Positions 42,507 to 47,832 of a DNA stretch of 64,000 nucleotides are shown in pieces. The position numbers and the translations under genes are program-made. This DNA comes from Olsenella uli. GTDB lineage: Bacteria > Actinomycetota > Coriobacteriia > Coriobacteriales > Atopobiaceae. Positions within the stretch are counted from its first letter, which is position 1; each line of letters starts with the position of its first letter. The DNA is taken from the NCBI RefSeq assembly GCF_016900775.1, contig NZ_JACJKN010000002.1:62001-126000 (forward strand), given 5' to 3'. The notes under the pieces were generated by a model. That model ran no database searches and was not told the DNA's origin. It saw only the letters and a program-made list of their open reading frames with translations.

Positions 42507-42803
42507 CTAGCGGAAGATCTCCCGGTGCGTGCCCGTGCGCTGGAAGACGGCGAGGTTGCCCTGCACGGCCCATACGAGCAGCCAGTCCCCGGCGTTGCAG
42601 ACGTGGCACTCGTTGGAGCCCGCCCACTGCCCGGCGAGCCGGTGCATGTTGTGCCTGCGGACGAGCTCCTGCCGCGCGGCGAGGGTGTTGGAGAGGATGA
42701 GGTCGATGACCTCCTTCAGCGGCGCCATGCCCGTTCCACTCTTGAGGAGTCGCTTGTAGTCCCGCTGGAACTTGGGAGTGTAGTCGGGTCGCAGCTGAGC
42801 CAT
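42507..42803 (-). CDS. YafQ/RelE-type mRNA interferase toxin
   Basis: The 98-residue protein has TPKFQRDYKRLLKSG, then WAGSNECHVCNAGDWLLVWAV and the end RTGTHREIF, with the C-terminal His that YafQ needs for catalysis. The start directly follows the stop of the DinJ-like antitoxin (no gap), so translation is coupled. Toxins of this group cut mRNA in translating ribosomes. It is the second toxin-antitoxin module of the window, unrelated to the HigBA-like pair. Confidence 0.88.
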   Translation of the reverse strand: MAQLRPDYTPKFQRDYKRLLKSGTGMAPLKEVIDLILSNTLAARQELVRRHNMHRLAGQWAGSNECHVCNAGDWLLVWAVQGNLAVFQRTGTHREIFR

Positions 42804-43079
42804 CTAAGCCTCCAGCGCCGCGAACATCTCGGCCGCAGAGTCGTAGCCCTTGATCTCCCCGCGTGCGTGGGCCGCAAAGATCTCCTCCGTCTCGCGGATG
42901 GCCTCGAGGGACTCCTCGTTGGGCTGCTCGCCGTCAAAGGTGATGGGGATGGACCCGGTGCGGACCATGTAGGTCCAGAACGCGCGCGTCACCGACGCGA
43001 GGTCCAGGCCGAAGCTCTTGGCGACCTCGGAGGCCCCGGCCTTAAGGTCCTCGTCGACGCGAATGGCATAGCTGGTCAT
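42804..43079 (-). CDS. RelB/DinJ-family antitoxin
   Basis: The protein has 91 residues. The N-terminal ribbon-helix-helix is MTSYAIRVDEDLKAGASEVAKSF (a landmark for residues 1-23), followed by LASVTRAFWTYMVRTGSIP, typical of DinJ. The acidic C-terminal tail (EETEEIFAAHARGEI-like) should wrap the toxin. It represses its own operon. The ATG at 43079 follows AAAGGAG. The promoter lies in the 121-bp gap to the EamA gene; that gap includes an AT-rich ACATCGTTATATGTATAACC stretch (43100-43120). Confidence 0.88.
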   Translation of the reverse strand: MTSYAIRVDEDLKAGASEVAKSFGLDLASVTRAFWTYMVRTGSIPITFDGEQPNEESLEAIRETEEIFAAHARGEIKGYDSAAEMFAALEA

Positions 43080-43200
43080 CTGTAGCTCCTTTGTAGTATG
43101 GACATCGTTATATGTATAACCAGAATCGCACGATCCTATCCGTTTCCACTTGGTGAGCGCGACGGCGCGAGCGGCGAGGGCGGCGCTATACTTTCCCACC

Positions 43201-45426: not shown

Positions 45427-45696
45427 CTAGCCTCGCTTCTCGTAGTTTCTCTCGCGAATCTCGCCGAGGGTGCGCTCGGCCTGCTCCTCCTCGGGGGTCA
45501 TGTAGTCGATGATGTCTCCCGGCTTGCAGTTGAGGACCTGGCAGAGGGCTTCGAGCGTGGAGAAGCGCATACCCCTGATGTGGCCGTTCTTGATGTTGGA
45601 AAGGTTGACGGTGGAGGTGCCAACTCTCTTGGCAAGCTCCGTCGACGTGATCTTTCTCTCGGCCATGACCCGATCGAGCCTCATGACAATAGGCAA
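45427..45696 (-). CDS. XRE-family regulator (YozG-like)
   Basis: The protein has 89 residues with an internal Cro/CI helix-turn-helix (ERKITSTELAKRVGTSTVNLSNIKNG; landmark for residues 13-38). FSTLEALCQVLNCKPGDIIDYM is the usual second half of this compact group. The C-terminal 25 residues are acidic and basic coil. It is the last gene of the radical SAM/peptide/DUF2975 unit, 39 bp after the membrane gene. Pairing with a DUF2975 protein is common in Firmicutes and actinobacteria. It may bind the dyad at 47585-47599; that is inferred. Confidence 0.88.
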   Translation of the reverse strand: MPIVMRLDRVMAERKITSTELAKRVGTSTVNLSNIKNGHIRGMRFSTLEALCQVLNCKPGDIIDYMTPEEEQAERTLGEIRERNYEKRG

Positions 45697-45735
45697 CTTT
45701 CACCTCCGGAACGGCATTCATTTCGTCTAAGGATA

Positions 45736-46227
45736 TCAAACGAAAGCGTCGGAGTCTTCCTTGAGGGCATCTCCATACCGAACAACCATCGCAAGGCAGA
45801 TGAGAAAGACAATCATCACGATGACCTTGAGGTCAAGCCCCGATTGAGGGACTATCACGGCGCCAGCGGAAGTGGCAATTGGATCAAACGTAGGCACGAG
45901 CTGGTCAATGAGAGTCCTCACCACGAGCAATGCGGCCGCGCCCGACAACCTGAGCGATTGCCTGGAGCTGAAGGGAGACCCTGCCTTTCGGAATCTCCGC
46001 AGGAACTCTGCCATGAACAGCACGGCGCCCGCGGTTGAGACATGGGACATCAGGGCTAGTGCTGGAAACAGGCTCCGGGTGGGGGTCGTCGGGTGATGCA
46101 ATGCCAAAACCGCGGCTAACAGTATAAGGGCGATTAGACAATATATGAAGAGTAGATATAGGAAGACCGCTCCGACTGTTGAGAAAATGCGCGCCAGCCG
46201 GTACTCTCTCTTGATTCTTTCAGGCAT
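45736..46227 (-). CDS. DUF2975 membrane protein
   Basis: The 163-residue protein has four membrane helices: near 18-42 (FLYLLFIYCLIALILLAAVL), 55-75, 93-113 and 133-153 (VIVMIVFLICLAMVV). I chose the ATG at 46227 because TAGGAG sits eight bases before it; that AGGAG overlaps the stop of the small peptide gene. A TTG at 46248 is an alternative. DUF2975 proteins are commonly encoded beside a YozG-type regulator, as here, but have no proven function. In this unit an immunity or export role for the peptide is possible, as inference. Confidence 0.8.
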   Translation of the reverse strand: MPERIKREYRLARIFSTVGAVFLYLLFIYCLIALILLAAVLALHHPTTPTRSLFPALALMSHVSTAGAVLFMAEFLRRFRKAGSPFSSRQSLRLSGAAALLVVRTLIDQLVPTFDPIATSAGAVIVPQSGLDLKVIVMIVFLICLAMVVRYGDALKEDSDAFV

Positions 46228-46237
46228 GTCATTACTC

Positions 46238-46312
46238 CTAAATGCCAATTACGATTCCATTGATATCAACACAGAAACCATTGCGCCCCTCGATCTCAAA
46301 CAGCATCCGCAT
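46238..46312 (-). CDS. 24-residue peptide coupled to radical SAM gene (putative modified-peptide precursor)
   Basis: The ATG at 46312 shares its A with the TGA stop of the radical SAM gene (TGATG), so it should be translated by the same ribosomes. A second ATG at 46306 lies 8 bases after GGGGAGG and gives 22 residues. The peptide begins MRMLFEIEGRNG and ends FCVDINGIVIGI. It has one cysteine, one aspartate-rich turn and a hydrophobic end. The stop lies in the ribosome site of the DUF2975 gene, so the four genes are packed as one operon. A peptide next to a SPASM radical SAM enzyme is the usual layout for radical-SAM-modified RiPPs, but no homologue is known to me. Confidence 0.5.
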   Translation of the reverse strand: MRMLFEIEGRNGFCVDINGIVIGI

Positions 46313-47553
46313 CACCTCCCCTCGGAGAATCGTTGCCGCAGGTGCTCGCCGAGGCGGTCGTAGTACGCGCTCGAGAGCGCGCAGTACGGGTCGCACCCGG
46401 TAAGGCTCCCCGTGGACATGAGCGCCCGCGCGCGGCACCCTCCGCCGCACGTCGGGCGCCGGCTGCAGGCGTCACAGCGATCGAAGGCCCTGGCGTCAAG
46501 CTCGGCAAACAGGCGCGCGACCTTTCCGCCCAGGATCTTCTCGGCGTCGTCCGCGTAGGCGTTGCCCATGGCCAGCCGGCGGTCGTGCAGCAGGTGACAG
46601 GGGTAGGCCGTCCCGTCCGCGGCCACGCTGAGCGTGCGCACGCCCGCCCCGCAGGACCTGCGGACGCCAAGCGCGCCGCCCCCTGGCAGGTCGTCCCCGT
46701 AGTCGAACCCCGTGTCGGCGGCGGCTCTCCCCAGCTCGGCGAGGCGGGCATCGCCGATCGCGTAGTCGCCGAGCTCCTCTGAAGGGGCGGTGAGCAGGCT
46801 GAACCCAACGCTTGCGTCCAGCCTGCGGGCAACGTCTCGGTAGCTATCCATGTCGTCGAGGTTTCTCCCGTGAATTGTTGGGAGGACCCGGGCCGCAATT
46901 CCCGCGGCGCGAATCGTCTCGACCGCGGACGCGAGGCGCTCGAAGCTCTGCCGCCCGCGCAGGTGGGCGACGGAGCCCTGCGAGCACCCGTCGAACGCGA
47001 CGCCGATGCAGCTCACGGTCCCCGCGAGCGGCTCGACGTTCTTCTCGGTAACGAGGAGTCCGTTGGTAAGGACGATGACCTCCCCGATTCCCGCGGAGCT
47101 GGCGGCGCCGGCGATGCCGGGCAGGTCGTCCCGGAGGAAGGGCTCGCCCCCCGAGATGACGAGGCGTGCCACGCCGAGGGAGGCGAGAAGGCCAATCGCC
47201 CGGGCCAGGCTCTCGGCCGGCGGGTCGGGCAGGAGGTTCCTGTCGTCGCCCTCCGAGTAGCAGAACCGGCAGCGGAGGTTGCAGCGTTGCGTCACGTGCA
47301 GGTATGCGGACCGTACGCGTGCGCGCCCCGGCGCGAGAGGCCCTCCGGGGAGGAGGTATCCCCCGTGCCGCAGGCGCTCCGCGAGCACCGCGCACTCGGC
47401 GGGCACCTCGCCAGCGTCCACCTCGCGAACCGCCAGCTCCCTGCAGAGCGCCTCCCCGGCGGCGGTCAGCCCGATGACGCCTCCCGTGCTGAGGTTCCCC
47501 ACGAGGGGAATACCTCCCAGCGAGAAGAGCTCGGCATGGGCGGCAAGTCGCAT
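46312..47553 (-). CDS. Radical SAM/SPASM-domain peptide-modifying-type enzyme
   Basis: The protein has 413 residues. Residues 1-75 resemble a PqqD-like peptide-recognition domain (NLSTGGVIGLTAAGEALCREL). The radical SAM core starts with CNLRCRFCYS (cysteines 91, 95, 98), then VISGGEPFLRDDL and VLTNGLLVTEKN. A C-terminal SPASM-type iron-sulfur region has CGAGVRTLSVAADGTAYPC, then CDACSRRPTCGGGCRA. Enzymes of this build crosslink or epimerise short peptides, and some act on other substrates. The first gene of a four-gene unit, it starts at the ATG at 47553 behind GGAGGAGGGG, with its own promoter upstream. The 279 bp to the HAD gene (47554-47832) hold this promoter and no other gene I can support. 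Confidence 0.85.
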   Translation of the reverse strand: MRLAAHAELFSLGGIPLVGNLSTGGVIGLTAAGEALCRELAVREVDAGEVPAECAVLAERLRHGGYLLPGGPLAPGRARVRSAYLHVTQRCNLRCRFCYSEGDDRNLLPDPPAESLARAIGLLASLGVARLVISGGEPFLRDDLPGIAGAASSAGIGEVIVLTNGLLVTEKNVEPLAGTVSCIGVAFDGCSQGSVAHLRGRQSFERLASAVETIRAAGIAARVLPTIHGRNLDDMDSYRDVARRLDASVGFSLLTAPSEELGDYAIGDARLAELGRAAADTGFDYGDDLPGGGALGVRRSCGAGVRTLSVAADGTAYPCHLLHDRRLAMGNAYADDAEKILGGKVARLFAELDARAFDRCDACSRRPTCGGGCRARALMSTGSLTGCDPYCALSSAYYDRLGEHLRQRFSEGR

Positions 47554-47584
47554 GACCCCTCCTCCGTTCGCGCTCTATGTAGCG

Positions 47585-47633
47585 CTGTATATGATACAGA
47601 TGCAATATATGGATTTAAGTAGTTTTCTGTTAA
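47585..47633 (-). promoter_or_regulatory. Promoter and dyad operator of the radical SAM operon
   Basis: Read on the minus strand, TTAACA (47633-47628) and TATATT (47609-47604) lie 18 bp apart. Just downstream, CTGTAT-3 bp-ATACAG (47585-47599) is a perfect dyad placed over the expected start of transcription, 32 bp before the gene. The XRE protein of the same operon is a natural candidate to bind it. Confidence 0.5.
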
Positions 47634-47832
47634 CGGTATAAAAGCTATGGAAACTTAAATAATCAAGATGAGCAAACAATTAACAAAATGATGTTAAGTC
47701 CCACACGGGGAGGAGAAAAGGGGATGCCCCCCTCCCACAAAGAGGGGATAGGGGGGCAGAATACCGGCAGCTGACGGGGCGGCGCGCGCCAGAAAAGTGA
47801 GCGCTGGCAGGCTCCGGGGGCGTGTCCCTGAA

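Follow-up and report, generated by a model that had tools for sequence, protein, structure and literature searches.

A conserved radical SAM peptide cassette of Coriobacteriia in which peptide and membrane protein diversify jointly, and its possible role in communication

What might a radical SAM enzyme, a very short peptide, a membrane protein and a transcriptional regulator do together? The question is raised by a 64,000-nucleotide stretch of the Olsenella uli genome (the window), the minus strand of which holds four open reading frames in the order radical SAM/SPASM enzyme, short peptide, DUF2975-like membrane protein with four transmembrane helices, and XRE (HTH_26) regulator. A sequence-only reading of this DNA had proposed a new radical SAM peptide system made up of four genes on one strand; the reading frames confirm this arrangement, and the proposal itself is supported by the conservation of both gene order and peptide protein sequence, as described below. 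The features of the locus are as follows.

46312..47553, minus strand: radical SAM/SPASM enzyme, 413 aa (Pfam Radical_SAM 8e-20, SPASM 1e-6), with residues 1-66 forming a PqqD-like N-terminal region in the model
46315..46321, minus strand: likely ribosome-binding site of the peptide gene, GGGGAGG, read from the sequence and overlapping the last codons of the radical SAM gene
46238..46306, minus strand: precursor peptide MLFEIEGRNGFCVDINGIVIGI, 22 aa, with a homologous short reading frame in 70 of 75 loci
46235..46240, minus strand: TAGGAG, read from the sequence, in which the peptide stop codon lies within the ribosome-binding site of the membrane-protein gene
45736..46227, minus strand: DUF2975-like four-helix membrane protein, 163 aa (DUF2975 E=0.0043, and a structural model), with a homologue in 69 of 75 loci
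45427..45696, minus strand: XRE/HTH_26 regulator, 89 aa, TTG start (HTH_26 2e-21), with a homologue in 68 of 75 loci
47585..47599, minus strand: dyad CTGTAT-CAT-ATACAG, present here and not conserved
47627..47637, minus strand: ACCGTTAACAG, a weak alternative candidate regulatory site, with similar sites upstream in the window's family

The peptide had been read as 24 residues long, with a start codon overlapping the radical SAM stop. The first in-frame ATG (46312) does overlap that stop, as TGATG, but it is not conserved in relatives and was rejected as the peptide start. The start shared by relatives is the second in-frame ATG, two codons later at 46306 and behind GGGGAGGTG, a layout that recurs in many of them, and the peptide therefore comprises 22 residues rather than 24. 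In relatives the peptides start with MLF (MQF in two) behind a AGGAGGTG-type site, and a GGAG-, AGGAG- or GAGG-type site lies 5' of 63 of 69 peptide genes. At the other end of the gene, the location of the peptide stop within the ribosome site of the DUF2975 gene was described correctly, and the same TAGGAG arrangement is seen again in many relatives; the membrane-protein start that they keep is ATG 46227, giving 163 aa.

A dyad overlapping the promoter had also been put forward as an operator. The dyad CTGTATCATATACAG does exist, but it is absent from the two closest relatives (L029 and L030), leaving its role as an operator unsupported. Palindrome and 8-mer counts of the upstream regions found no conserved operator and gave only weak GTTAAC-type sites; within the window's family, ACCGTTAA occurs in five upstream regions and CCGTTAAC in four, both weak signals. 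Elsewhere on the minus strand of the window, two adjoining reading frames at 42507-43085 resemble, by eye, a toxin of the YafQ/RelE type (98 aa) and an antitoxin of the DinJ/RelB type.

Four genes that form a conserved unit

In samples of one genome per species, some of them incomplete, and with genes called by simple ORF finding, the enzyme was detected in 22 of the 140 genomes of the window's taxonomic family. Across the class, 68 of 398 Coriobacteriia genomes matched at 1e-40, 67 of them at E<=1e-107, and the last match, at 6e-41, falls outside the radical SAM family; given this gap, the family is sharply delimited. It spans three families of one order, the two besides the window's own being, we infer, Eggerthellaceae and Coriobacteriaceae, and in a phylum sample of 396 genomes the matches were confined to the same order. 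A wider spread was considered and rejected: the matches on plasmids of Streptococcus, Clostridioides and Treponema are distant ones, and the neighbourhoods in Streptococcus and Clostridioides differ from the cassette.

Among the 75 loci of the radical SAM family, the MLF peptide is present at 70, the membrane protein at 69 (one truncated) and the regulator at 68, several of the missing partner genes being accounted for by contig ends. The usual gene order is radical SAM, peptide, membrane protein, HTH, and seven loci (L101, L114, L116, L117, L121, L128 and L130) have the alternative order peptide, membrane protein, HTH, radical SAM. Since both orders keep the four genes adjacent, the cassette stays a unit after rearrangement. 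A search for the same gene order in other Coriobacteriia, which the sequence-only reading had suggested, thus recovers the four genes together over three families, even when rearranged. All-against-all ORF clustering of 76 loci found no other real gene near the cassette's frequency, the next being present at 20 loci, and showed no transporter or exporter and no protease common to the cassette loci, nor any dedicated oxidoreductase or peptidase conserved nearby.

Several loci lack one or more of the components. A frameshifted peptide in a relative that keeps the enzyme had been named as evidence that would speak against the system, and this was found at one locus only, L022/L043, where the peptide is shifted by a single base in an 85%-complete genome. 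L109 and L119 keep the radical SAM and HTH genes and have lost both the peptide and the membrane protein, as if a variable block had been deleted. The HTH gene is absent from L046, and L129 carries tandem MLF peptides, MLFLSSGNAGCVNVGFVLCVSLGYDPLNL and MLFFSKALSAGCMSLGVGLCLTWGASNGTWTG, just 3' of the radical SAM stop, together with neither membrane protein nor HTH gene. Enzyme, peptide, membrane protein and XRE regulator nonetheless constitute a conserved unit. A further gene of about 310 aa, with an N-terminus that looks LysR-like by eye, lies on the opposite strand about 2.4 kb before the radical SAM stop in 20 loci of one branch (for example L107).

The precursor peptide and its partners

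The peptides share the motif MLF...CxxI, to which the two-cysteine forms add CxxxG. Forms of 21-25 aa with one core Cys are found in the window's family and one other, and forms of about 26-29 aa have two, as in MLFYSEADPRSVCYPIGFNGSCFAIGF. MLF opens 67 of 69 peptides (the other two have MQF), Cys1 is present in all 69 and Ile, Val or Leu occupies position Cys1+3 in 66; Gly at Cys+4 or +5 is usual. An Asp-Ile-Asn-Gly turn, to which attention had been drawn in the window's peptide, is not conserved, whereas MLF, the Cys, Ile/Val at Cys+3 and a Gly near the C-terminus are. In the two-Cys peptides, Gly at Cys2+4 is invariant (44/44) and is written with all four synonymous codons (GGC 14, GGG 12, GGT 10, GGA 8), indicating that selection acts on the protein. 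Together with a pooled pN/pS of 0.42 (77 pairs; pS is near saturation), this bears out the expectation that the peptide's codons would be conserved at the amino-acid level. Given this constraint and its presence at 70 of 75 loci, the peptide reading frame is no chance occurrence. The constant N-terminus and the variable remainder look like a leader and a core, and thioether rings would be compatible with the CxxI(G) repeats. The peptide is probably cross-linked by the radical SAM enzyme and probably thioether-bridged.

Two further observations concern the peptides. In the alternative gene order, those of L101, L114, L116, L117 and L121 have C-terminal tails extending about 6-12 residues past the last conserved Gly, which are perhaps cut off on maturation. 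In addition, the Met-Leu-Phe that opens all but two peptides (46298-46306 in the window) consists of the same three residues as fMLF, the formyl peptide detected by mammalian formyl-peptide receptors; the likeness probably reflects merely an enzyme recognition motif.

The enzyme is of a known kind, being a SPASM RiPP maturase. Its CX3CX2C radical SAM motif (C91, C95, C98) is invariant across 19 homologues, as are the seven cysteines at 301, 319, 360, 363, 369, 373 and 391, and with Pfam SPASM scoring above its cut-off this upholds the SPASM-type cysteine region claimed earlier. For the PqqD-like N-terminus, the AlphaFold model (pLDDT 88.5) shows three strands followed by helices, the order of a PqqD/RRE domain, although no sequence profile picked up such a domain. 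The closest fold in the PDB is that of the thioether-forming maturase CteB (5why), followed by anSME, SuiB and TigE. No NCBIfam equivalog matched at its cut-off; the best was StsB (NF045574), at 109 bits against a cut-off of 625, and PqqE and the mycofactocin maturase are among the weak profile matches. An identity as viperin was rejected, as the PADLOC viperin matches span only the common radical SAM core.

The membrane protein of the window matches Pfam DUF2975 (PF11188) at E=0.0043 and 17.4 bits, under the 27-bit cut-off, and the assignment to DUF2975 made earlier would not stand on this protein taken singly; however, a match at E<=0.01 is obtained for 33 of 59 homologues, which makes it a distant DUF2975 member. 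Its model has four helices (pLDDT 91.6), and a PDB fold search with it returned no significant match, the weak GPCR-like matches (E>0.5) being generic helical bundles. By the positive-inside rule two of its loops lie outside; sequence entropy peaks in these and is lowest in the cytoplasmic loop and tail. The regulator matches HTH_26 (PF13443) at 2e-21 and 76.4 bits against a 22-bit cut-off, and is 98-100% identical in the two closest relatives.

DUF2975 and an HTH gene of this XRE family also occur as a two-gene module without the radical SAM gene. The window's own genome carries another DUF2975 gene next to one for an HTH_26 regulator (G000:C4:5134-5781; L078, L161), with orthologues across the genus, and neither a radical SAM gene nor an MLF peptide was found near it. 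The cassette therefore looks like a pre-existing membrane/regulator module joined to a radical SAM enzyme and its peptide.

Joint diversification of peptide and membrane protein

Closely related loci differ sharply in how well the four products are conserved. Identities of the radical SAM enzyme, peptide, membrane protein and HTH regulator are 97, 67, 58 and 98% for L102/L105, 96, 63, 44 and 97% for L098/L099, and 78, 59, 42 and 100% for the window and its nearest relative (L028/L029). The corresponding pS values for the first two pairs are 0.15, 0.68, 0.69 and 0.26, and 0.20, 0.44, 0.79 and 0.30. In these sister species synonymous sites approach saturation solely in the peptide and membrane-protein block, which points to a history older than, or foreign to, that of the neighbouring genes.

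The edges of this block are sharp. Between L102 and L105, nucleotide identity is 88% upstream, 90-97% in the radical SAM gene and 100% over the first 15 bases of the peptide gene, falling to 66% over the remainder of the latter; the first half of the membrane-protein gene cannot be aligned, its last 60 bases are 97% identical, and identity is 93% in the HTH gene and 85% downstream. The variable block thus begins past the MLFYS codons and ends ahead of the last 20 aa of the membrane protein. L112 and L113 have kept the same allele and show no dip in identity. By its radical SAM enzyme L102 is nearer to L105 (97% against 93% to L097), whereas it is nearer to L097 by both peptide (93 against 67%) and membrane protein (77 against 58%).

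The same tendency appears across the family. In 12 of 48 triplets, against about five expected by chance, peptide and membrane protein were both discordant with the radical SAM enzyme; singly they were so in 15 and 17, and the HTH regulator in 2. A partial Mantel analysis given the radical SAM enzyme also linked peptide and membrane protein (r=0.21, p=0.001; for peptide and HTH, p=0.077), with the triplets and Mantel pairs drawn from related, non-independent sequences and the p-values accordingly indicative. An intrinsically fast evolution of DUF2975 was rejected as an explanation: orthologues from modules without the radical SAM gene are 91, 93, 91 and 86% identical, while the cassette membrane proteins of the same genome pairs are 40, 60, 53 and 42% identical, a control that rests on one family, a second having given too few orthologues. 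Peptide and membrane protein thus diversify jointly, as one block flanked by an enzyme and a regulator that are both conserved, in a pattern that resembles agr-type specificity groups. Such co-diversification fits a signal and its receptor and a toxin and its immunity protein equally.

Possible functions and related systems

The simplest account of the exchange of peptide and membrane protein as a block is that the membrane protein binds the peptide, and the conservation of both its cytoplasmic face and the regulator suggests that the output does not vary. We take as the best reading, at even confidence, a self-contained radical SAM RiPP pheromone cassette, in which the cognate membrane protein would detect the modified peptide and signal to the XRE regulator. 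The enzyme would bind the constant N-terminus MLF[E/Y] via its putative PqqD-like domain and cross-link the variable C-terminal part through the one or two conserved Cys, most likely by a thioether to an Ile/Val or Gly that follows three to five residues later. The product would leave the cell by a housekeeping route and be recognised by the variable outer face of the cognate four-helix protein, the conserved cytoplasmic loop and tail of which may relay the signal to the regulator, which in turn may control the cassette and possibly further genes. The different alleles would then mark out specificity groups like those of agr quorum sensing.

The main rival, which we consider rather unlikely, is a bacteriocin with its immunity protein: the modified peptide would kill close relatives, the DUF2975-like protein would confer immunity and might also signal, as SdpI does to SdpR, and the XRE protein would autoregulate the cassette. 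Toxin/immunity pairs, too, typically show coupled hypervariation of a peptide and a membrane protein, and streptosactin, which is made by enzymes of the StsB family, the best-matching NCBIfam profile, inhibits the strain that produces it as well as related ones (PMC8172795). The cassette nevertheless has no dedicated exporter or protease, its regulator is conserved along with the enzyme, and the occurrence of the membrane-protein/regulator pair without any radical SAM peptide suggests a sensor/regulator role.

The lack of an exporter and the tight coupling of the enzyme, peptide and membrane-protein reading frames would suit a modified peptide that is retained inside the cell, where it acts on the membrane protein from its inner face or serves as a small subunit of it. 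This we hold to be improbable, as the membrane protein varies most in its predicted outer loops and an internal subunit offers little reason for the exchange of blocks between species. Still less probable is that the peptide serves, like PqqA and MftA, as starting material for a small redox cofactor: the very short precursor, the single SPASM enzyme with a putative PqqD-like domain and the weak matches to PqqE and the mycofactocin maturase would suit such a role, but what would be the cofactor-forming part is hypervariable between sister species, which makes this unlikely, and no conserved oxidoreductase or peptidase lies nearby.

The pheromone reading can also be set against described systems. 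Streptosactin (GggA/GggB = StsA/StsB) and other streptococcal RaS-RiPPs likewise place a short Cys-containing precursor beside one radical SAM/SPASM enzyme and are linked to a regulator, and the un-nested Cys-to-i+3 thioether rings of streptosactin (PMC8172795) are comparable to the CxxI of the cassette. Unlike them, the cassette lacks Rgg/SHP, protease and transporter, has another precursor motif and includes the membrane-protein/XRE partner; it is not among the 16 streptococcal RaS-RiPP subfamilies listed (PMC13361665). With CteB and PapB, maturases of ranthipeptides and sactipeptides, the enzyme shares the SPASM architecture, and all may plausibly follow one logic, in which a Cys is paired with an acceptor a few positions along the peptide; identity to CteB is 18-19% in the fold alignment, and the precursors differ. 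PQQ and mycofactocin systems similarly combine a very short precursor with a radical SAM/SPASM enzyme, and have a PqqD-like recognition domain, for which the model shows a candidate here, but their cofactor-forming residues are invariant, whereas the cassette has a hypervariable core and no cofactor genes.

In agr, too, the peptide and its membrane partner make up a hypervariable block in an otherwise conserved operon. The cassette differs in having no AgrB protease, histidine kinase or response regulator, in the predicted radical SAM modification of its peptide and in its DUF2975-like partner; it may work like agr, and is not a member of it. The modules of DUF2975 with YozG-like HTH_26 contain the same pair, an HTH gene of this family standing beside every radical SAM-free DUF2975 gene examined, but neither a radical SAM gene nor an MLF peptide was found beside them, and their DUF2975 proteins are conserved between related species.

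Radical SAM peptide cassettes are known, and a search of the open-licence literature yielded no description of one that has this precursor motif or this membrane-protein/regulator pair or that comes from this lineage; the motif, the DUF2975/XRE partnership and the evolution by specificity blocks were likewise absent from the curated libraries and the papers searched. It seems possible, at a little short of even confidence, that the cassette represents an undescribed class of communication system in Coriobacteriia, in which a radical SAM cross-linked pheromone of 21-29 residues and a DUF2975-like four-helix receptor coupled to an XRE regulator are exchanged, peptide and receptor as one block, into specificity groups. 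The allele-block pattern provides a direct genetic handle on the peptide's binding partner, the DUF2975-like protein, from a family for which the sources searched give no function, and dozens of natural alleles permit cognate and non-cognate combinations to be compared directly. If this reading is true, the DUF2975 family would gain a function and, if confirmed, the cassette would show how Coriobacteriia communicate or compete.
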